From: Cristatella mucedo | Lineage: Eukaryota > Bryozoa > Phylactolaemata > Cristatellidae | DNA length: 64,000 bases | Direction of reading: 5' to 3' | NCBI GenBank assembly: GCA_009760855.2 | Contig: WPIO01000014.1 | Coordinates: 3,154,501 to 3,218,500, forward strand | Shown here: piece after piece, positions 9,001-31,300 of the stretch | How positions within the stretch are numbered: position 1 is the first letter of the stretch | How the letters are laid out: each line of letters starts with the position of its first letter | Position numbers and translations under genes: made by a program | Notes under the pieces: model-generated | What the model saw: only the letters and a program-made list of their open reading frames with translations | Databases searched by the model: none | What the model was told of the DNA's origin: nothing

Positions 9001-12000
9001 TGCTGACCTAATCTCCAAGTAAAATTCCCAGACAAAAAAGACCACTGGCACTCTTAGAGCAAATAACTTATGTTCTCCCTCTGAGATGCCTCGGTTTGCT
9101 GGAGCTATATATAACCAAAATAATAAATGCATCCTTTGCCTTAACGTGTATTCTTTCATCCTAAAAAAGAGGCTGCTGTCATGTCACTCATTAGGAGGTC
9201 GACACTACACCAAGAAGACTTCACCAGTCTCTACCCAGTCCCTCTCCCTATTGCTATTCCTATTAATCACTTTGGATAGAATAAAGGCAGACTCATACAT
9301 AAAAACCTCGAAACTAACAAGTAAGTTCCTGTCAGGGTTTACAGCAAACCTTTTCAGAGTCAGCATTGCTGTAACCATATACCGACATCAGTAATGGTGA
9401 ATTAGGTGTAAAGTGATCCGTGATAGCTCTGCTATATCTCCCTGCAGCTTGGGATACCACTTGATCACAGAGTACTTATTGAGCTCCTATCCTCTCGTCT
9501 GTGTATCATACATGTTATCACTAATCAATTGATATGCTTCCATCCCAACATGTGTAAAGTGACTAGAACGAGATTTGGTTCCCTTGGGAGGCTATATAAC
9601 TGTTTTAGTAGTATACCTACTATTGACTCTATACCACTTACAAGGTGTTTTGGGGCGATAGACAGCCAGCTGCAATCAAACACAATAAGGTCTTTGAGCA
9701 AAGCAGAAGGGCCGAACACGAGACAGAGATACAAAGCACCAGCTTGCAGCACAACCTACACGAGGAAAGGAAATAGCATACCTTTCTCACGGGCATCTGG
9801 ATAGACACCTTGCTGTCCGGGAAGTGTACAGTGATGCATGGACTATCAGCACTGCCAGCATCAGACTCACTGTCCTCGTAGGAAAGCTGCTGTGGTTCCC
9901 GAAGCATCTTTCGGTTGCCACCGCCAAACTTGCCTAGCACACGGTAAGCAACGTGTGCTATGCCTTCGTTAGAGCTCCTCAGACAGCGCCATAAGGCCTG
10001 CATGAGCTCTGCCCGCACCGGCTGGATGTGGTCGTATAAGAACTCGGGCTGAAGGTTGTCGACGCAGAGCTCAAGTGTGCGTAGCCCCTGGCAGACATAA
10101 AAACAACGACAAGCTCGTAAGCCAACAGCCAGGCTGAACAGACGTATTAGTGCCGCCGACCTACATGGGCTGCCAGTAGGTCGTGGCAACACCTTCATCC
10201 ACATACGAAACCACAAGTGCGCATGCGTTCATAGGCACCGGCACTACCTGGCTGATGAGTGTCTGAGATCCGTTCAGCGCCGACACCAACGGGTCCATGA
10301 GCATGGGTAGGTAAGGCAGTAGCGAGCTGAGCCGGACTGGCACCGTCAGGCAGAGCTCGACGAATAGATCCTTCATGTGCTGCTTGTGCAACCCACTCTG
10401 CAGACTGTTCAGACCTGCAGGGACAAAAGCTCATTTTATTCCTAAGGCATATCAGTCAGCACGAGTGAAGAGCAGAGTACAGGCAGCCGTGCTGTGCAGC
10501 CGAATTAAGCTGATTCAGCAATGGTACAAATGGAACACATACTGTGCAGCAGTGTTGGCAGAAGTGGCAAAAACTCCTGGTAGAGCAGGTCGTGGCTTCC
10601 ACCACCTATCGACCGAAACAAGGCTCTCAGAAGCAGGAAGTAGTTGTAGGGTTCCTTGGCTGTCATCGCCAGCTCGATTGATCGGTTGACTATAGTGTGC
10701 AGATGAGGCTGCAAGATGATCAAGATTGCACACACCTGCCACGCTAAATTGGGGGGGGGGTGTTGTTAAACATAGATGACTGAAACTGCCAGTACTCAGC
10801 CTCCACCACATCTACCATACCACCCACTTATTTCACAACCCCACTGCACACACTAGGCAAAGCTTGCAAGCGACAAAGTTTTTTCACAACCCCACTGCAC
10901 ACACTAGGCAAAGCTTGCAAACGACAAAGTTCACTCTTCGGTGTACTGCAAAAGCTACATCTACTAAGCACAGCAGGCTTTAAAAAAGCATAATTGAGAT
11001 TACGACGATTGCACTAGAGTAACACACGTTCATGCAGCAGGTATGCAACCAGAGTCACACAAACCTTAAGCATCTGCTCATTCTCAGCAGCAAACAATGA
11101 AACTGAGCCGAAGACGAGCTTAAACAGCTTCAAGTACAAGCTCGACCGCTCAACGTGTACTGCTGAAAAAGAACAAGGCAGACTTCGATGAAACATAATT
11201 GAAACTTAAGACGAAACTACTGCACCAAGCAATATAGCTCAATAGATTTGTGCACAGCGCAAACCATCTAAATTGCAATAGCAATGGCAATGGCTCAGAA
11301 GTCAAGCAAACCGACTTACAGCCCATATCTTCAAGTCGAGCAAGCAAGTACTCAACAAGGATGGTCGCAAAACTTGCAGAAGTTGTCGGGTTGGCGAGAA
11401 ACGAGTTGGCGACAATCTGAAAGATCCCATGCAGGTCATCAACAACAACGGCAGCATGATGATCCAGCCAAGTTTCACTAAATGCTAAGATCATACCTGG
11501 AGAGCATAATTATTGTGTATTCGCTCAACCATGAAGTCAATAGTGACAGAGAATATTTCACGGAAAGTGGTCGGATTCATCATTGTAAACTACAAAGTAG
11601 GTAACATGAGTACTGCTAAACAAGTAGTAAGTATTAATCGACATTTTTTGAGAGCTTCTAAGCGGCGACCTGCTGCTACAGCTGCTGCAGCCGCATAACA
11701 AGTACGCACCACACCAGCGAAGTGCTCCAGAACTTCCTTCTCTTCTTTGGTGCGTACCTGGTTCACACTGTAAGTAGCATTTGTTTAAAGTCAAAGCTGT
11801 TAATAGGCAGCAGCATGGTTTTGTAATTTCTCGAGTAACAACGAAGCAAAAGGACAAAAAACACTCACGCTGCTGGCCGTATGAAAGCCTGTCCAGTCGT
11901 GGTAATGCTTATCGTATAGATGTCAAGTGCCCTGAGAGCAAACTTAACAAGTCGCACGAAGACAAGCGTTTCCTTGGGTTGAAACTGCCTTACTTGCCCA

Positions 12001-15000
12001 AGTACAGCATCTGAAAAAGGGACGTGCAAAATTGGTCAGGACTCAAAAACTCTAAACTCTAAGGGCACCACCATATAGTTAACAGGGTTGAGTATGGCAT
12101 CCTCCAGCATATACGGTTTAATAAACTTCAGCTGAAGTCAGCCGTGGTTACAATTATAATAATGGCTGTAGCAATGGTATGCAGGTGAAACACCAGAGCA
12201 ACCGAGTCTTCAAAATTACACAGGGAGAAAGACCAGTGTATCAACTACACAGGGAGAAAGACCAGTGTATCAACTATCTATAATCAGAACACCTAAACAC
12301 AATGCAAGGATACTGAGGCATTTCGGCTTTCTAACAAACATCAAACAAAGCTAGCCCACGACTAGCATCAATACAAAAGAGATACCTGTGAAGAAAAACA
12401 AGTACACAGGGAGCTAAGTACAGTAGCAGCCATACTAAACATGTGGGTGACAACTCCTTCCAACCTTTGCCTGTTCACAGCCACCGACAAATCGTTTTCG
12501 GGTTTAAAAATGAGGTGCCCAAATGGCAGAGACCCAATTAGCAAAAACCTAGCAAATCATAATGAAGTGAACTTGTGTGTTTCGACTATCTGTCATAGAC
12601 TAGCCACCAACTGGCGTACAGGTTTGAAACTTCAAACCTTAAGACCAATATCGAAAGAATGCTACTTGGACTAACTGCTAAATATGTGGATACCAGCCCA
12701 TGAAATGTGTTACTGCACTGGCAATACAGAAGGTAAGCTTAGAAAACGCAGAACCCAAAAAACCATAAAAAGAATTTTAAATGTCGCCAGATGCTTAGTG
12801 AGCCAGATCACTAAATAAACTTGCTGCTTCTTCAGTAACCACCATCGAGTGTACCGTAGAAATGAGCCATGCGACCTGAGTTAACTAGAGCATTGTGAGA
12901 ACTGGAGAAATGCCACATGACTAGCACCACTTGGCACGTACTCCCAATATTTATCCCGTGCAGCTTGCTCAGTTAAGGTAGCACCTTAACTCAGTAAGCA
13001 TTGAATTTCCCCCCTCAGAGAGGCACGATGCTCGATTTTTCCTACGACAATGAATTATAATAATAATAATTCATTTGTGCAGCACCTGTAAAAAGCTTAT
13101 TCTCTTTCTAGACACTTTATATGTGCTTAAAAGGAACCATGCACATATATTCAGTGCTAGCATGCACAGAATGAACGCAAATATTAACGGACGGCAGCTT
13201 GCTCTTTAAAGTCTCATGGTCATGCCTTCCAATACTCCACATTTAAGGCAATAACCAACATCTGCAACTTAAAGCTGCGGGGAACATGAAAAGCATTGCA
13301 ATCTGGTGGTTCGCCTAGACCAGTGGTTCTCAAGCTTCCTAATGCCGCGACCCCTTTAACACAGTTCTTAACGTTGTGGCGAACCCTGTGAAAGGGTTAT
13401 TCGACCACCATAGGGGTCAAACCTAAAAACAAAAAACACTCACGCTGCTGGCCGTATGAAAGCCTGTCCAGTCGTGGTAATGCTTATCGTATAGATGTCA
13501 AGTGCCCTGAGAGCAAACTTAAGAGCCCGGTGAAAGGGTTATTCGACCCCCATAGGGGTCGCGACCCACAGATTGAGAACCGCTGACCTAGAGAGTCGTC
13601 TATGAGACACTCACAACCTGTGGCCAACAGTGTCAGCTCGGGGTATACAACCTAAGTGAGAAGTGCAGCTGAATAGACTAGCCCACGAAACAGCTAAAAC
13701 AGCAGTAGCAGCAAAGGTCGGCTAACCAAAAAATGCCACAACTTGCAGCAGCATGCGCACAGGCAGCACTACCATGTCAAACTTATGGACGTGAGTTCCC
13801 ACAATCTTATCGCCTGCACAGCAAACGCATTTGCGGCCAACAGTCTTGAAGCAAAAAGAAAGGATGACAAACATACTCTTCGAAGGCCACACGAAGGCTG
13901 CTGATGCTGCAGCCGTCAGCTCAGTGTCGAGGAAAACGTTCAACCCCTGACCAGTCCTGAGCGTACAACTATTTGACTTGGTTTGCTGTTCGACCAACAT
14001 TTTCTTTAGCAAAAAAGACATGACTTACTTTCTTGGATTTTAATATCAATCTGGTGGCCACACTAGGGACATCTGTTGAGGACTGGTAGTATTTTGTGGT
14101 ACCCCTGCTAAGTTAGATCTGCTACAGTCTGCTATAGTTAGCACAAGAAAGAACTTTAAAATCCCTTACACTACTTTCCCTTGTTCACAGTTGTTTAAAT
14201 GATGCATTCCCACCAAACCAGTTACCTCTACATACATAATACACAAGTCCTCCAAAGGACTTGTAAGCTTATAATTGGGTCGTTAAAGATCAGCACCCCT
14301 TGCTATATACATCTGCACTACAGTCAACCTACAGATAAAAAAAAACGTGTTCTTCACGATCCAACTCGAAATAATGCAATGTGCCGACCACGCACGACAG
14401 GGCATGGCCCTTGGGTCAAAGTCTCAGTGGTTATTGCAGACAGCCGGTAATGGGTAAGCTTATAATTGGGTCGTTAAAGATCAGCACCCCTTGCTATATA
14501 CATCTGCACTACAGTCAACCTACAGATAAAAAAAACGTGTTCTTCACGATCCAACTCGAAATAATGCAATGTGCCGACCACGCACGACAGGGCATGGCCC
14601 TTGGGTCAAAGTCTCAGTGGTTATTGCAGACAGCCGGTAATGGTGAGTGTAAACCGACCGGCACGACCACTACATAACAGTTCGGGCACAGTAAAGATTC
14701 GGAATAGCAAGGTAATGGCAGCTAAGACTTTCGAGGGCATGTGTTTTATCACCTGCAGGCGTCTTGCAAGATGCAATGCCCCAGGTAATGGTCTTAACAC
14801 CGCAGACAAGCGTCTTGACAAGGCTTCGGCAGTCCACCACGGAGTAATTGCTCATCTGGACAGTCGAACCGAACTTGGTCTACAAGAAAAATGTCAAAAA
14901 GTTCTGCTGGGACGTCCAGGTGCACAATCTATACTAGCCTTCGAGTTCGATCAAGTCAGCCGAGGAGCATAGCCAAGAAGCTTCACAATACCTTTTCTTC

Positions 15001-18000: not shown

Positions 18001-21000
18001 TCCATAAGCATATTCGTATGGTACAATTTTGTTCGCATGTGTAAAAAGCTCCGTCCCTGTTAGCTCATTCTTGATCACAATAAGTACCTGATAAACTCGA
18101 ATGATATAAGCAAGAAAAGACAAAGTCTTGATCTGCGCAGCAATGAAGTCTACAAATATCTCTTTGTTGAACATCGGGCTCGTTCTAAAATAAGAAAATA
18201 GCCGACATGTTACAAGGCAACACCGAGAAGATGCAACCACTGCTATCACCTCTCATTGTACCAACGTTGGCAGAAGGTGAAAGCAGCAAACTTCACAATT
18301 TACTAGGTACCAGACACAAACCACTGTTTATTAAATAACCGTTTAGGAGCTGAATGCAATTACCTTTGCTGGGGTGTAGGCTGAAGAACAAGAGCACTCA
18401 TGATGAGTGGAATGAATTCGGCTACCTCCTGGTGGACGTTGCTTTTGAATAGTTGGTACATCAGTACAACGATGATAGGCAGTTCAGCGAGGACTTTAAG
18501 TGATAGCGTGACACGTGGAATGACATTAAACTGCAGAACAATAAGCACGGCACATCAAGACACTTGATTTTTGCAAACTCGGTAGTGACCCACAGCAGCA
18601 GCTAACATTTGAAAATACGAGCCATAAAAAGTATAACACCGATGAAGCAACTAAATAAAGACTAACAAGCTAAACTACATGCAGGACGTATCTAAAACGT
18701 ATCGAATAAGAAAATGCAACGCCAAATGGGAGAAAAAAAGAGATTTACCGTGACAGGCTGATTGTCGGGATTTCGCTTTTCTGTCGTTATTGGAGTAACG
18801 GCAAATATCTCCGGAAGCAAAATGTCTACAGCAATTTCCGTTATGTCTTTCACTTTTATCTGTGATCGTGGCTCAAATATTTTTTGCAAGTGAGAAGGAA
18901 GCTCCTTGTAAATGTTCTTCACAAATTGAAGAAACTTTTGAACCTACAGCAACATAGCCGAATGAAAAGAAGTGCTCCAACAAGTCAATGTGCAATGAAA
19001 CAGCAGCCAAGAACTAAGTAGTTTACCTCGGGACCATACGGTGGACGGTATGTCTTGTGTAGCTCAATGATAATACGTAAGCAAACAAGGACATTCTCTT
19101 CATTCTCAATCTAAAAGAGGATAAGGAAAATCGGGTTCATGAGATGAAATAAAACTCTGCAAACACGAGCATTCACTTAACATCTTGCCACATTTGCCGA
19201 AATGATAGCCTGCCTGACATTTCAGCCAAAACAAAGCTAATTGCCTTCACGCAAGGGGGGGTGAAGAAGCTGCCGATTACCTCGAGCAGATTAAGCACTA
19301 ACGTTAGAATTTGTTTCCAAAATGGTTTCAAGAGCTCGTTGGTTGGCAGCCTGTGCAAAATCTCCAGAAGAATTTTCCGCAGTTGCTACAGGTACAACAA
19401 TGTTCTGTCAATTACTGAAGCGCAGACAATAACAAAAAAGCCCAAATGCTGACAAGACAGCAGCAGCACCAAATGCTGGGCCTTTGAAAAACTTATGACA
19501 CGGCAACGAGATGTCGATTGAACACTACCCGTTGTGGAAAAATCGCAATACCTGCATGCTGAGCTCAGCAATGAACTGCGGCTCTCCTTCCTGAAGCACT
19601 TTCAGAAACACCTTCACAAGGTCGGGTAGCATTTGAGAATACTGAGCAGACGATACAACAGACTACAGCGCAGAATAAGACACGCGGCCAGCATGAGGTG
19701 AATGAACAAGCAGAAAAGCCAGAGCGAGAAATCAATGAACGATCGCCTTTGTTTGCATTTTACCTCGAGGTTCTCGCTCAGCTCCTGAGCTGCCTTCAGC
19801 TTCTTCTCGAGTGCTACAGCAGGAAACGACTATGAGGGTAACAGCAGAATGCAGGCTACTATTGGACACATTCCATTCGGTCCGAGCAAGAGACAAAGAT
19901 GATCAGATCTTATCAGCTACTGGCATCCGTGCCGACTCAAAACGAATAGGGGAGCAGCGCCATTACTTTCAGTTGCATCCATCACAACAGCTGAAAAGAA
20001 GAGATTCTTTTTCTTGCTGATCAGACCTTTGTCAGTACAACCACCCTAATTCACTATTCACAAGACCAAACTTGTGTACGACCTGCATGTCAAACTTGCT
20101 TTGCATCGAAAGGCCAACAAACCAGTTGCCCTTCATACAGTCCAGCACTGTTCTTCATACATTAATCTCGTTCTCTTGCTCCTCTTACAGTAAGTTGCAA
20201 GCACCTGAATAGAGATTGATGTATCTTACGGCACTACGTAAGACTCATTATTAGTATTAGTTTTGCATTATTACTCTCATTTACTGTATCACTGCTGCGA
20301 GGCTCAGGCTACAAGCCAATGGTTTAGCCTAGGCCCAACCAAGGCCAAGGTCGTGCTTACCTCATAGCAATATAAAGTGCCAACAAAGAGATTGAGTTAC
20401 CCGATGTCAAATGCATTATTACTATTATTAGGGTGAATGTATGGAATGACCGAGGTCATGGGCTCGCACCCTCCCCCCCCCCGTGGCATAAGTGAAGCCC
20501 CTGAATAGAGATTAAATTCTCTAGGGCTCCAGAAAAATGAATATATTTTTTATTTAAGGCAGTCATGTGCAAAGAGTTACATAACCCTGAAAAATGCCCA
20601 AAGCTGCCACAAAGGAAGAAAGCATGACAATAGCCACCTACAAGCAGTGGTGCCTTACAGGACACCACAAAATAATAATAATAATGCACTTAATAAAGTG
20701 TCCTCAGAGAACTTAATCTCTTTCTAGGCGCTTTACATTTGCTGCAAAGTGAAATGCAATTGAATGGTAAGTAAAATCATGCTTGAAAAACAAACAAAAT
20801 GAATAATATGGTTAGGGGTGACATACACAGGGTCAGCATGCAAATGTGGTTAGTGGCAGCATGCACAGTGTCAGCACGCATAAGCACATCAAGGACGAAT
20901 CACAGGGACCCACTAAATGCTGTCCTAAATAGGTGTTTTTAAGTTCCTTTTAAATGTGGTCAGGTCAGGGGATGTTCTGACGCAGGTCGGCAGGGAGTTC

Positions 21001-22518
21001 CAGGCTTTGGGACCATACGAACTAAATGCACGGTCTCCAAAGGATTTAAGGTTTGTACGAGGTATTTCTAGACTGTTTGATTCCGAAAAGCGGGTGGTAC
21101 GATGCTTGGCCTGATGGGGTAGTATATCTGAAAGATAGGCTGGAGCCATAGAATGAAGAGACCTAAAAGTGAGCGACAAAACCTTGAAGTCAATCCGTTG
21201 CTTGACTGGTAGCCAGTGCAGGTCGGCGAGAAGTGGAGTAATGTGGCAACTGCGACGCTCACGACAGACAAGCCTAGCTGCAGAGTTTTGCACCAGCTGC
21301 AATCGCCTGATCGCACATGCTGGTAGGCCAGTAAGCAGTGAGTTGCAGAAGTCGAGACGGATTGTCACGAATGCATGGACCAACTTGGACGTGGTATCCT
21401 TTTCTAAACGAGCCCGAATTAAAGCAATGTTATGAAGCTGAAAATAGGCAGATTTGACTGTGGAGCTGATATGGTCGTCTAACGAGAGGTCGCTTTGGAA
21501 TATCATCCTCCTGCTCAAATCCTCACATCCTCCTGCTCAAATCAATCCTCAAGCAGGCTATCATGAACTGCCTGCTGCAAGTGGAATCAGCTGCTATGGC
21601 TCTTCTACTGCCTTTTAAATAAGGCTTTTGCTATTAACTTAATTTACCAATACTATACTTTTAGTTATTCAATACTACGATGTTTAATTCTGTATCTCGG
21701 TAAGGGTGAAGAGCTTGCAGAGCGATTGCAATAAGGTCTTGCTCCTGCATAAAGATTTGCCAAATCACTGACACGGTATGAAACGACCACTGCATTAATA
21801 CTACAGCATCAACATCCGGCGTAATATACACGGTTACACGTTGAAATAAACGTATCGTGATTCACAATATCCTGTATCCATGGCCCAATTTAATAAGTTT
21901 TAAAAAATGAGACTGCCATGTTGAACTGAATTTTTCAGTAAAAATAAGCTAGTTGATAAGCAATTAGTTTAGGCTGGCAAGTTCTTTTTCTGATTCGACT
22001 CAAGCTCACACGTGCTTAGCCTCCATCAATCACCGGCAATTTTTGTTAATATATTTGTGAGCCAATAATTCATCGAGTAGGTGTGAAACTTCAACCCATT
22101 TCAGGGGGCCCTTCTCAAGGCAAGGCTGGGTGCAAAGTAAAACAATGGAACGAAAACAACATGATATGTAGACACTAAGCAGCCGGGAAATCTCATCCTA
22201 ACCCTTAGTCAGCTGATTCTGGGGTAAGAAATTCGCCAACACGAGTCTCATCGATCGCGATTGTCACATAGAAAATGGCAGGCAGTAAGCGAAGTGCGGT
22301 TAATATAATCGTCAAAGGTAAGTCTCGGAAGACCGCACACAAAACAAGCTCAAGCCGGCCCAAGCGCTGAGTATAGCGAACCGGTTGAGGTCACTAGTAT
22401 GCCGTAGCGCTCGGCGTTAGACGGTTACATAAAAACTAACGCATAAATACAAATTACCTGAGGCAGAGTCTCCAATCAGCTGTATGTAAGATTTGAATTG
22501 GATGTCTTGCTGAGCCAT
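1..22518 (-). CDS. TRRAP: TRRAP/Tra1, 5' part (31 exons, continues past the left edge)
   Basis: TRRAP is a catalytically dead PI3K-like scaffold that recruits SAGA and NuA4/TIP60 acetyltransferases to activators in the nucleus. Exons in transcript order (all minus): 22518-22458, 19813-19764, 19641-19552, 19385-19281, 19110-19027, 18943-18749, 18530-18364, 18184-18088, 16537-16399, 16106-15823, 15498-15407, 15313-15169, 15024-14992, 14879-14753, 12010-11869, 11767-11710, 11589-11497, 11416-11320, 11162-11065, 10708-10543, 10414-10248, 10087-9782, 8583-8432, 8375-8185, 8092-7997, 7911-7721, 4793-4708, 4595-4484, 4262-4080, 3186-3037, 136-1. All have GT-AG borders and all phases join, giving about 1,364 codons with no stop. 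Recognition rests on near-identity to recalled vertebrate TRRAP, for example [52 protein letters not shown] and [20 protein letters not shown]. This is the N-terminal HEAT/TPR solenoid; FAT and PI3K-like domains lie outside the window. Start chosen at ATG 22518 ([11 protein letters not shown]); an in-frame ATG at 22632 would add 38 residues. The acceptor at 8375 is the least certain. Confidence 0.95.
248..411 (+). mobile_element. SINE-2 copy (tRNA-derived family)
   Basis: A tRNA-like head (degenerate A box near 262, B box GTGTTCGAATCC near 303) is followed by GGGCGAT-CTTTATT, GCCATAAAGGCTCTTTTG, TATACAAATGAGGCTGTT. The same order recurs, mostly on the minus strand, near 5.98, 32.2, 47.5 and 57.1 kb. 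It lies in the TRRAP intron between exons 30 and 31. Confidence 0.7.
1255..1695 (+). mobile_element. LINE A 3' fragment
   Basis: It encodes the end of the LINE ORF ([20 protein letters not shown], then TTFKKNLKT), the 3' UTR with GCATGCTG repeats, and the family tail CAGCAAATGTAAAGC...GAGGGCGCTTTAT, ending in (ATT)n. Antisense to TRRAP, in an intron. Confidence 0.8.
1735..1885 (+). mobile_element. Second, more decayed LINE/SINE 3' tail
   Basis: GTGCCTGGATAGAGACTTGG, TTCTCATAGGGCATATA and a terminal A/T-rich ATTATT run match the shared tail of LINE A and SINE-1, directly downstream of the previous copy. Confidence 0.5.
1960..2308. repeat. Three-block minisatellite, 16/13/16-bp units
   Basis: Block 1: about four copies of GATGATGCTACCTAGT. 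Block 2: about six copies of the 13-bp GATGCTACCTAGT. Block 3: thirteen perfect or near-perfect copies of GATGCTACCTGCCGCC. Because 16 is not a multiple of three and the unit has no stop, all three frames of block 3 are open and spell the same 16-residue repeat, giving spurious reading frames up to 135 codons. It lies in a TRRAP intron. Confidence 0.95.
3305..3560 (-). mobile_element. LINE A internal relic
   Basis: Alignable with the LINE A ORF copies at 21.2 and 28.9 kb (AGCCAGTGCAG, GAGAAGTGG, CACAGACAA-CCTAGCTG, AGAGTTTTGCAC) but with many substitutions; both strands happen to have an 80-codon open frame. Intronic in TRRAP. Confidence 0.7.
5978..6105 (-). mobile_element. SINE-2 copy, diverged
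   Basis: Reading the plus strand: AGCTGATTCAGCAGCCTCA, AGAGCCTTAGCGG, GCAACAAAGAATTGTCC and CCCACGACCTAGGTCG match the reverse complement of the SINE-2 body and B box. Confidence 0.6.
6275..6378. repeat. Tandem array of a unit of about 35-38 bp, three copies
   Basis: The core GCCATTTATAAAGGTAGCA with CTATCT recurs three times near 6285, 6318 and 6350 with small indels. Intronic in TRRAP. Confidence 0.8.
10831..10931. repeat. Tandem duplication, about 50 bp, two copies
   Basis: TTTCACAACCCCACTGCACA through GCAAGCGACAAAGTT is repeated head to tail with one substitution, in the TRRAP intron between exons 19 and 20. Confidence 0.9.
12216..12276. repeat. Tandem duplication, about 29 bp, two copies
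   Basis: ACACAGGGAGAAAGACCAGT plus GTATCAACT occurs twice in a row in a TRRAP intron. Confidence 0.9.
13050..13140 (-). mobile_element. LINE A solo 3' tail
   Basis: (AAT)n followed by TGCAGCACCTG-region tail and CTTATTCTCTTTCTAGACAC; an extremely 5'-truncated insertion in a TRRAP intron. Confidence 0.65.
13321..13585. mobile_element. SPIN-like hAT MITE carrying a captured TRRAP exon fragment
   Basis: Ends are CAGTGGTTCTCAAG and the inverse, TTGAGAACCGCTG, with CTAATGCCGCGACCCCTTTA inside the left end and GGGGTCGCGACCCACAG inside the right. These match the SPIN/URR1 group of non-autonomous hAT elements, known for horizontal spread among animals. Flanking 8-mers GCCTAGAC and ACCTAGAG share six central bases, as expected for a hAT target duplication. 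Positions 13429-13522 are a perfect copy of 11854-11947: the last 79 bp of TRRAP exon 15 plus 15 bp of intron with the splice donor. A 30-bp piece of element sequence brackets the insert (13388-13418 and 13530-13560). Confidence 0.85.
14263..14643. repeat. Tandem duplication, 191 bp, two near-identical copies
   Basis: Copy 1 is 14263-14453 and copy 2 is 14454-14643. They differ by one A in a poly-A run and little else. It lies just upstream of the TRRAP exon at 14753-14879 and contains no exon, so it should not alter the protein. Confidence 0.95.
16578..16672 (+). mobile_element. LINE A solo 3' tail
   Basis: TTTGCAGCAAATGTAAAGCG, CCTAGAAAGAGATTGGG, GAGGGCGCTTTATC, ending (ATT)n. It is only about 40 bp upstream (in TRRAP sense) of the acceptor for the exon at 16537-16399. 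Confidence 0.85.
20195..20275 (+). mobile_element. SINE-1/LINE A tail, decayed
   Basis: AGCACCTGAATAGAGATTGA followed by GGCACTACGTAAGACTCATT and ATTAGTATTAG matches the shared 3' tail. Confidence 0.5.
20311..20560 (+). mobile_element. Two adjacent SINE-1 copies
   Basis: The first ends with TAAAGTGCCAACAAAGAGAT and an ATTATT run near 20430. The second has ACCGAGGTCATGGGCTC (B box) near 20442, a C-run, GTGGCATAAGTGAAGC, then the tail CTGAATAGAGATTAAATTCT. Both are truncated at the 5' end. Confidence 0.6.
20672..21510 (-). mobile_element. LINE A, 5'-truncated, young copy
   Basis: Reading minus: a 197-codon open frame from 21518 to 20925 covers the C-terminal region of a CR1-like non-LTR ORF2 ([55 protein letters not shown]). 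The 3' UTR and tail end in (TTA)n at 20672. It is nearly identical to the copy at 28285-29060, so both are recent. It lies in TRRAP intron 1, in the same sense as TRRAP. The reverse transcriptase domain is missing. Confidence 0.9.
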
Positions 22519-28282: not shown

Positions 28283-28314
<32 letters not shown>

Positions 28315-31300
28315 TTGCACTTGATAAAGCGCCCTCAGAGAACTTAATCTCTTTCTAGGCGCTTTACATTTGCTGCAAAGTGATACGCAATAGAATAGTA
28401 AGTAAAATCATGCTTGAAAAACAAACAAAATGAATAACATGGTTAGGGGTTACATGCACTGGGTCAGCATGCAAATGTGGTTAGTGGCAGCATGAACAGT
28501 GTCAGCACGCATAAGCACATCGAGGACGAATCACAAGGACCCACTAAATGCTGTCCTAAATAGGTATGTTTTTAAGTTTCTTTTAAATGTGGTCAGGTCA
28601 GGGGATGTTCTGATGCAGGTCGGGAGGGAGTTCCAGGCTGTGGGAGCATACGAGCTAAATGCACGATCTCCAAAGGATTTAAGGTTTGTACGAGGTATTT
28701 CTAGACTGTTGGATTCCGAAAAGCGAGTGGTACGATGCTTTGCCTGATGGGGTAGTATATCTGAAAGATAGGCTGGAGCCATAGAATGAAGAGACCTAAA
28801 AGTGAGCGACAAAACCTTGAAGTCAATCCGTTGCTTGACTGGTAGCCAGTGCAGGTCGGCGAGAAGTGGAGTAATGTGGCAACTGCGACGCTCACGACAG
28901 ACAAGCCTAGCTGCAGAGTTTTGCACCAGCTGCAATCGCCTGATCGCACATGCTGGTATGCCAGTAAGCAGTGAGTTGCAGAAGTCGAGACGGATTGTCA
29001 CGAATGCATGGACCAACTTGGACGTGGTATCCTTATCTAAACAAGCCCTAATTTTCATATATGAGGCCTTGTTAAAAGCTTTTGGTGAGGATAGTCATCT
29101 GCTAACAAAAATATTTGGTGCTATGTGAGGAATGGTATATGGCTGTTGACCATACTTAGTTGCAAAACTCTCTATCATGTGGAAGGTATTACGAACCGGC
29201 ATGTATACCTAAACATGAAAGAAAGTCGGAAGTCAGATCGCGATGGTCCCAAGAGATGTGGAAATTGTATGTTTCTGCATGACACTGATACCAAGACGGC
29301 GGTAGCATTTTTGGCAATGATTTGTATCACGGGTAGTCTCTGCTAACTGCTCTGGCCTGGCGTGGCATGGCAGGAGCTCTTATCTAAACCCCATCAAAAA
29401 CTTGAGGATGCTCTGGAGCAAAGCGAACGATCAGCTATTTGTTTAATAATTATTATAATGTCTTGTATACAAACCTAAGAAATCTCCCTATTCGGGTGCT
29501 TTACAACTCGATGCAAGAGAAGCAACAGGCCTTAGTTAATAAAAAGCAACGTATCCTGCCTAGGCAAAAGCACACAAAAAGACACTAACACCGGCCAGTA
29601 TGTCCCTGTTAGTAACATAAACTCAATCATGTACATGTAAGCAAAGTACACAGGATCGCCCCAGGAGATGTCTTTGAGGCTGTGTCACTGCTGTCAAGAA
29701 TCGCTCGTGGGTTATGCACGAGAATGCCCATGCCAAGTCGTATTAGAAGTTAGTTACTAATGCAGAAGTGTAGCTTTTACGGCTATGACAGACCATGAAT
29801 GTATGCGCTTGCAAAGTAATGCTTTGTGAAAGTAATATTTACTTAAAAAAAGGCGGTGCGCTATTCGTTAAATATATAAACGCTCTCTTAAGCTTTTGAC
29901 GTCATCTTTGTGTATATACACGTGTATGTGTCAGTGGATGCTTTGTACTTATTTTCTATTCGTGTCTATGTTATGTTATGAATCATTTACCCTCAACAAG
30001 ATTCATTAGTGGCTCATAGTCGTGATTGTCTCATGTGTCTGGGTTTCATGCGTTGTGACTGGTTGTAAGCTAATTTTCTTCTGGACTATCTACAGGATCC
30101 AAAAGTTTCCCAGGCGACATGGAAGGAATCGGGATCTGCCGTAGAGAAGACTATGGTGTGCATAGCTCTTGTCATGAAAAGAGTCAAGGTTTGTTACTTA
30201 TTTACCTGTTGTTGTCTCGTGCATTTAACTATGTGCACATAACTAAAAAAAAATAATGTGACTTCGTCACCATCTTTGAGTTCAAACTGGTGTGAGGTAT
30301 GACATCGAGCAGACGGGCATTGTTGTCAGTACCTCACTTTTCAAATTTACTAGCATCATATGCTGCCTATGTGCTGTGTGGTATTGCTGCCATGTGGACA
30401 CCCATGACGACCACTGGCATACTCGGGCACATGGTAGGAAGTCGTCCATTGCTGTACGTCTTTTCTTTTATGAAAAGCCCAATACGACAAGAGGTTGTAT
30501 GACCTGTACTGTTCGCTATTGTACCTCCAGCTTTTTAAAGCAATCATGTGATGTACATATAAATAGACATCGCGTTGCTCTCCATTTCATTGCTGTTTGT
30601 TAGGCTGTATAAGGTTTACAGAACGGCTGCTTATTTTCATAATTGTAGGGACTACATCAGGCTACAAGAAAAGGCATCATCAGGTATGACTAAATGGATA
30701 TACATCTTTTTCTATTCACAGTTCACTTGTAGGCAGGAGTTGATGTTCTCCAATTAACTTATTCTTTAATATCCTTGATAATAATGCAATTAGAAACAAG
30801 TAACTCGATGGGTAAAGAAATTGCTATGCAATTCTCAGGAAATTTAGAGGCGCTTTGTTAGTATTGGCTACTTATTCGACCGTGTGGGCATCCGTTCACT
30901 GACTTTGCTTTTTGACTTTCCTTTATAGGATAACCACGTATTGGGAACCAAAAATAGATGGCCTTGAAAGGTTTGTAGTGCCAAATTGTAAACTTCGTTT
31001 TCTTCTGGCTTGTTAAGGCAGACCATGGTAGATGACACCCCTGCCTCAATTGTGGCACTTCTTTTCTTTGGTATCAAGCTTACTTACCTTTTGACAGGCT
31101 GGTTGTAACCCGGCAGGTGCCGCTGGTAGCTGTTTTACTTTCAAAAATACCATTAAATCCGTCACTAGCTGGGTAAGCAGTTATGTTTTTTGTGTGGCAT
31201 TCTCGTTGTGCACATCTATGCTTTGTACGTCGATGCTTTGTATGTGATCAGCAGATGACACCCTTCGAGCAATTTAAACATTGCTCAACTTGTCTGCTTT

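Follow-up and report, generated by a model that had tools for sequence, protein, structure and literature searches.

Pack-TYPE or transduplication elements are DNA transposons that hold fragments of host genes (PMC8903248; PMC2572040), and those of plants shuffle coding DNA genome-wide (PMC8903248). A survey of 100 animal genomes reported 370 Pack-TIRs and attributed most of the single-copy ones to gap filling that is independent of transposition (Tan et al., 2021; PMC8277862). In the sections of that survey that concern us here, 56.9% of 281 unique Pack-TIRs lie within 15 kb of their source, the majority of these within 5 kb; microhomology is found at a breakpoint in 67.6% of cases, breakpoints lean toward the interior of the element, exonic sequence is captured in 13.4%, the median insert is 224 bp and the median gap 4.6%, and in primates 91 of 97 Pack-TIRs have a plain element in outgroups (PMC8277862). 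Templated insertions made by alternative end joining (polymerase theta) are described as imperfect repeats of 5-8 nt with adjacent templates (PMC2895639). As for the carrier studied here, SPIN (SPACE INVADERS) has been placed in the Buster group, with nnnTAnnn given as the target site for TcBuster (PMC3499496); a SPIN-like hAT with about 1,000 copies in the snail Biomphalaria (PMC5440852) and a report of SPIN in the bug Rhodnius (PMC11614815) mean that such elements are already known in invertebrates.

We analysed a window of 64,000 nucleotides from the bryozoan Cristatella mucedo, in which an intron of TRRAP contains a short hAT-like element interrupted by a perfect copy of the end of a nearby TRRAP exon. 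We regard this locus, with good though not full confidence, as a single-copy animal Pack-TIR (a Pack-hAT) in which the exon end was captured after insertion, by templated gap repair. Like the single-copy Pack-TIRs as the survey presents them, it combines a TIR element, a unique host insert, a near cis source that is exonic, microhomology at one breakpoint, internal breakpoints and an insert younger than the element. It departs from the Pack-TIRs of Tan et al. in a gap of 22% of the element, above their median, in a 94-bp insert that falls under theirs, and in an additional insert of element sequence. A 94-bp match cannot reach the BLAT score of at least 100 used as a cut-off in the Pack-TIR pipeline outlined there, which is a detection threshold and not a biological criterion; a further measure used there, a unique parental copy at a length ratio of 80-120% with no TE in the neighbouring 100 bp, gives 94/94 bp here, and no sequence of this element adjoins the source. 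With polymerase theta insertions, as characterized in the portion of PMC2895639 cited above, the locus shares copying from nearby DNA and microhomology at joins, and differs in that 94 bp were copied from a template 1.5 kb distant. A host gene fragment within a DNA transposon is also what defines Pack-TYPE and transduplication elements in the cited accounts; unlike the plant elements treated in PMC8903248, a second insert-bearing copy was not found in the host assembly. Among the matches listed from a search of the openly licensed PMC literature, no title concerned this locus.

Results

A TRRAP exon end is present twice

Window positions 13429-13522 equal 11854-11947 over 94 bp with 0 mismatches (100% identity), in the same orientation, and a chance match is excluded by the expectation value (BLAST within the window, E 6e-45). 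Of the 94 bp in the copy, 79 are exonic and 15 are intronic and include the splice donor, as the original prediction had it; the copy starts 1,575 bp from the start of its source, so that the parental copy lies close by in cis. Because intron and donor are included, the copy was derived from DNA and not from spliced RNA. The relevant features are as follows.

11854..11947, minus strand: source of the captured piece, made up of the final 79 bp of a TRRAP exon plus 15 bp at the start of the following intron
11869..12010, minus strand: template TRRAP exon, 142 bp, assigned by TRRAP match, splice sites and frame
12011..14752, minus strand: TRRAP intron housing the element, 2,742 bp, donor 14752 to acceptor 12010, predicted from splice signals and reading frame

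The assignment of the source to TRRAP, also proposed before, holds: its translation aligns with residues 579-618 of human TRRAP (chain 8h7g_C; E 4e-8), and a second frame on the same strand likewise matches TRRAP in solved structures. In Pfam, two of four translated window stretches match Tra1 regions and the other two, one of them a LINE-like frame, match nothing. Splice signals and a frame check place the borders of the source exon at an acceptor TTTTTCAG followed by ATG and at a donor AGC/GTGAGT on the minus strand. By the same reasoning the next exon is predicted to start at 11767 and the upstream exon to end at 14753, and the three exons join into one open frame.

In the 572-Mb host assembly the 94 bp were found at just two places (2 candidates, 2 scored). 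The genome search suggested earlier thus returns no further 94-bp copies, while element copies lacking the insert are numerous. A retroposed exon, considered as a source, is ruled out by the 15 bp of intron in the copy, and a multi-copy captured family is unsupported with 2 matches in the whole assembly. At the source, BLAST with the element finds no element sequence beyond the 94 bp. Rfam and tRNA scans of the window found nothing.

Several other repeats were observed in the window. The TRRAP intron that houses the element also contains, some 0.7 kb away from it, a 190-bp tandem duplication at 14263-14643 (99% identical), and there is a 29-bp tandem at 12217-12276; the two suggest further recent local duplications. 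The TRRAP region also holds a 51-bp tandem duplication (98%) at 10831-10931, outside the exons assigned here. A 752-bp repeat pair (20671-21420 and 28302-29053; 95.9% identity) has LINE-like ORFs by eye, and its first copy (20671-21420) had no match in Pfam. Elsewhere in the assembly, COX1-like pieces were noticed on contigs C166, C83, C549 and C299, apart from C688 (21 kb), which has a full COX1; these pieces probably represent mitochondrial DNA that was copied into the nucleus. The COX1 of C688 reads TGA as Trp: translation tables 4, 5 and 9 yield one identical open frame of 517 codons, and under the vertebrate table 2 no frame exceeds 350.

The carrier is a member of a SPIN-like hAT family

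SPIN-type ends at 13321 and 13585 delimit a 265-bp member of a multi-copy family. The ends, CAGTGGTTCTCAA and CAGCGGTTCTCAA, show 0 mismatches to the SPIN-type terminal inverted repeat pattern, and both element ends, with at least 10 bp of each terminus, flank the insert. The identification as a SPIN-like hAT element, made originally from the same ends, is thereby upheld. We presume the name SPIN to be right for this family on the strength of its end sequences, and the longer copies L022 and L019 seem to resemble SPIN interiors. What the family shares with SPIN is SPIN-type ends, 8-bp flanking repeats with a central TA and a short MITE form.

An element search of the host assembly (572 Mb, 688 contigs; the window is on C55) gave at least 62 matches, including the window's own and the exon; this is a lower bound, 40 of 1426 first-look candidates having been scored. 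The exact right-end pattern occurs at 69 places including the window, against 0 for the reversed control. Among the 68 other copies with this end, 62 also have a recognisable left end within 900 bp, and 58 of the 62 measure 158-194 bp, the usual family length being about 187 bp. In 46/62 the 8-mer flanking the copy upstream carries TA at positions 4-5, and the flank pairs match at 7 or 8 of 8 positions in 39/62. The window's own 8-mers, GCCTAGAC and ACCTAGAG, have the TA at 4-5 and match at 6/8, so that "near-perfect", as they had been called, overstates their agreement. These properties fit a non-autonomous, SPIN-like MITE of the Buster group of hATs. Searches of viral and prokaryote contig collections with exact patterns from the element's ends and its right arm found no match.

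Two of the 58 copies of 158-194 bp (L073, L083) fit the consensus poorly over about 24 columns. Four of the 62 are longer: L096 and L116, which resemble the longer copy L022, as well as L056 and L092. None of the 62 was shown to hold a single-copy host insert, a result whose scope stops short of the L096 and L116 interiors. Six right-end copies lack a left end; five of these match the consensus from a start at positions 11-50 through to its end, and L111 only from 144.

A few copies were noted in their own right. In L092 (C442:3279479-3280449), a repeat that by eye is tRNA-like and a lengthy (AT)n tract break up the SPIN-like copy. L019/L056 (C22:3820852-3821169) is a SPIN-like derivative 318 bp in length, and its 88-bp interior differs from that of the 498-bp L022; since this interior has 11 matching places, itself included, L019/L056 represents a small derivative family. 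L042 (C44:3298090-3298500), outside the 68, is a 187-bp copy with a non-native middle of about 33 bp, of which no second copy was found within about 5 kb.

The element is a mosaic

The family consensus was built from 29 copies of at most 195 bp. Both ends were recovered in 31 of 38 distinct family regions (L047 repeats L041, and L048 stands for the window itself), and L019 and L022 were left out as longer; the 29 are the best matches to the window element, not a random sample. Against this consensus the element reads 1-65, an extra 131-162, 66-76, the 94 bp of TRRAP and 118-187, the TRRAP piece standing in place of consensus 77-117 (41 native bp lost, 22% of the element).

13313..13320, no strand: left flanking repeat GCCTAGAC, target-site duplication with TA at 4-5
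13321..13386, plus strand: left arm of the SPIN-like MITE, consensus 1-65, with 6 mismatches and one inserted base
13387..13418, plus strand: additional 32-bp stretch repeating right-arm consensus 131-162, with entry at GGCGACCCC
13419..13428, plus strand: short stretch best read as native left arm, consensus 66-76; its first C may be common with 13418
13429..13443, minus strand: captured 15 bp of TRRAP intron with 5' splice donor GTGAGT
13444..13522, minus strand: captured 3' end (79 bp) of the TRRAP exon, with 100% identity to 11869-11947
13518..13521, plus strand: CTTA microhomology at the right junction, where the exon end equals native consensus 118-121
13523..13585, plus strand: right arm of the SPIN-like MITE with terminal inverted repeat
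13586..13593, no strand: right flanking repeat ACCTAGAG, 6/8 match to the left one

All pieces share one orientation, as would be expected if a single growing strand had switched templates several times. At the right exon junction, microhomology of at least 4 bp, such as CTTA, arises in 1.4% of simulated single junctions (P 0.014), and a 2-bp discrepancy follows it directly; at the left exon junction the microhomology is 0-1 bp.

A 30-bp stretch of the element had been reported as duplicated around the insert. The repeat is real, but it extends over 38 bp at 92% identity (13381-13418 and 13523-13560), and 32 bp of its left copy are extra, the rest being readable as native left arm. Its interpretation as a scar of breaking and rejoining around the insert is not supported as it stood: the repeat reads as an extra, templated 32-bp insertion of right-arm sequence, some 10 bp to the left of where the exon piece begins. 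The 9-bp word GGCGACCCC at the self-copy junction is found in the consensus at both 57-65 and 122-130 (P 0.0035, self simulation). A search with the compound left junction (63 bp) gave 17 matches (16 candidates, 16 scored), and only the window's own covers all 63 bp; one other is the window's right arm, and the 15 elsewhere extend no further than query position 52. That the extra 32 bp mark a subfamily is accordingly unsupported, the compound junction being found at the window only.

The extra 32 bp differ from the window's right arm at 2/32 sites and have T, A and T in common with it at consensus 142, 143 and 155. These states occur singly in 2, 6 and 3 of the 29 consensus copies, and all three together in 0/29 and in 0/113 locus rows (some rows being one place twice). 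The template was thus likely the element's own right arm. Another family copy, L126, is by count equally close (2/32 differences), sharing 143A and 151A and missing two of the three states common to the extra copy and the window's right arm; it could have been the template instead.

The 10 bp between the inserts score 14 against consensus 66-76 (2 mismatches in 11) versus -2 for a continuation of the right arm, and 474 of 20,000 shuffled versions fit consensus 66-76 as well. A return to the native left arm has moderate support on this comparison; if it is discounted, the lost native stretch is 52 bp.

An old element with an apparently recent insert

The arms of the element diverge from the consensus at 11/122 sites (9.0%; left 1-65 and right 131-187), a count that omits consensus 118-130, beside the junction, and at 13/133 with the whole right arm. 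This agrees with other copies, whose mean divergence is 7.8% (the 29 best matches) or 7.2% (56 copies selected on the right end). Between the TRRAP piece and its source, 0/94 sites differ (95% upper bound 3.1%); for an unconstrained copy of equal age, the probability of remaining unchanged at 94 sites is about 1.4e-4 (Fisher 0.0015). Since the arms have diverged at 11/122 sites and the flanks agree at 6/8, with the exon copy at 0/94, the capture appears to have come well after the insertion: the contrast points to a capture younger than the element's insertion, barring a reset by gene conversion, which could mimic the youth of the 94-bp copy. The earlier view of a recent event therefore stands for the capture, for which break repair by copying fits, but not for the element, which is not young.

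Splice signals within the copy

Splice sites were scored with a weight table. The copied donor, identical to the real one, scores 5.9, third strongest of the 214 GT sites in 12013-14700. The copy had been said to bring no acceptor, which is too strong: an internal AG (first exon base 13506) scores 6.3 as an acceptor, against 4.1 for the real acceptor of the next exon at 11767 and 10.2 for the source exon's own. Among the 166 AG sites of 12013-14700, no fewer than 12 score above 6.3. This acceptor-like site would define a predicted 63-nt pseudo-exon (13506-13444). Spliced after the upstream exon, both it and a longer, 174-nt pseudo-exon are predicted to bring an in-frame stop.

Discussion

Based on this anatomy we can offer a proposal for how the locus arose. 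A non-autonomous SPIN-like hAT MITE of about 187 bp would have entered the TRRAP intron long ago. Much later, a break or a stalled fork within the element would have been repaired with template switching: the new strand, growing from the left arm, could have switched at the shared GGCGACCCC to right-arm sequence, most likely the element's own, and copied 32 bp of it, gone back to left-arm sequence over some 10 bp, and then made a 1.5-kb jump to the TRRAP exon. After copying 94 bp across the exon/intron border, it would have been rejoined to the right arm at CTTA, with the loss of 41 native bases. The order of the mosaic, the presence of the 94 bp at two places, their source at the DNA level and the contrast in age are observed; the break, the polymerase steps and the origin of both inserts in one event we infer. 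Features that count against even this best explanation include the microhomology of at most 1 bp at the left junction, a consensus built from the copies most similar to the window element, and a 41-bp loss (22%) above the published median gap of 4.6%.

The alternative that deserves most attention divides the process into two repair events, a 32-bp duplication of the right arm first and an exon capture about 10 bp away later; we consider it possible but doubtful. It would account for the 2 differences between the 32-bp copies beside 0/94 in the exon copy. However, that contrast is not significant (Fisher 0.063), and one compound event is therefore allowed, not proven; an error-prone polymerase or another template copy such as L126 could also yield 2 differences. 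Independent inserts so near each other are less parsimonious, and the compound-junction search found the duplication alone in no other copy. A capture tied to transposition, in which the gap left by the element's excision was repaired from the neighbouring exon, or the element took up the exon elsewhere before jumping here, seems to us very unlikely. Elements of the hAT superfamily do leave gaps upon excision. Multicopy Pack-TIRs of animals have been linked to transposition in the survey sections cited above (PMC8277862), yet no further insert-bearing copy emerged from the assembly search, the source is just 1.5 kb off, and the arms and flanking repeats are far older than the inserted piece.

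An undiverged insert in an old element would be expected equally if an old capture had later been re-homogenised by gene conversion from the TRRAP exon; the identity ends abruptly on both sides, though, with flanks that by eye contain no diverged homology, and we rate this history as slightly more improbable than one tied to transposition. An assembly artefact is the least credible of these explanations, and extremely so: the locus is on a 7.25-Mb contig, and a misjoin would not usually fall within a mobile element and come with both microhomology and a second templated insert. Capture after insertion, by templated gap repair, is thus the reading we prefer. The kind of repair accident has already been described in animals, and this locus is apparently a recent one-off instance of it.

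The resulting Pack-hAT is most likely without function. A role of the copy in splicing is only a possibility, raised by the predicted splice sites, and it is highly improbable that some TRRAP transcripts include the captured exon end as a new poison exon, with a fall in TRRAP output as the result. Were it so, a single accident of repair in an old transposon would have given a major transcription-cofactor gene a regulatory exon. Apart from splicing, the 94-bp direct repeat now spans an exon border and could seed deletions or unequal exchange in TRRAP.
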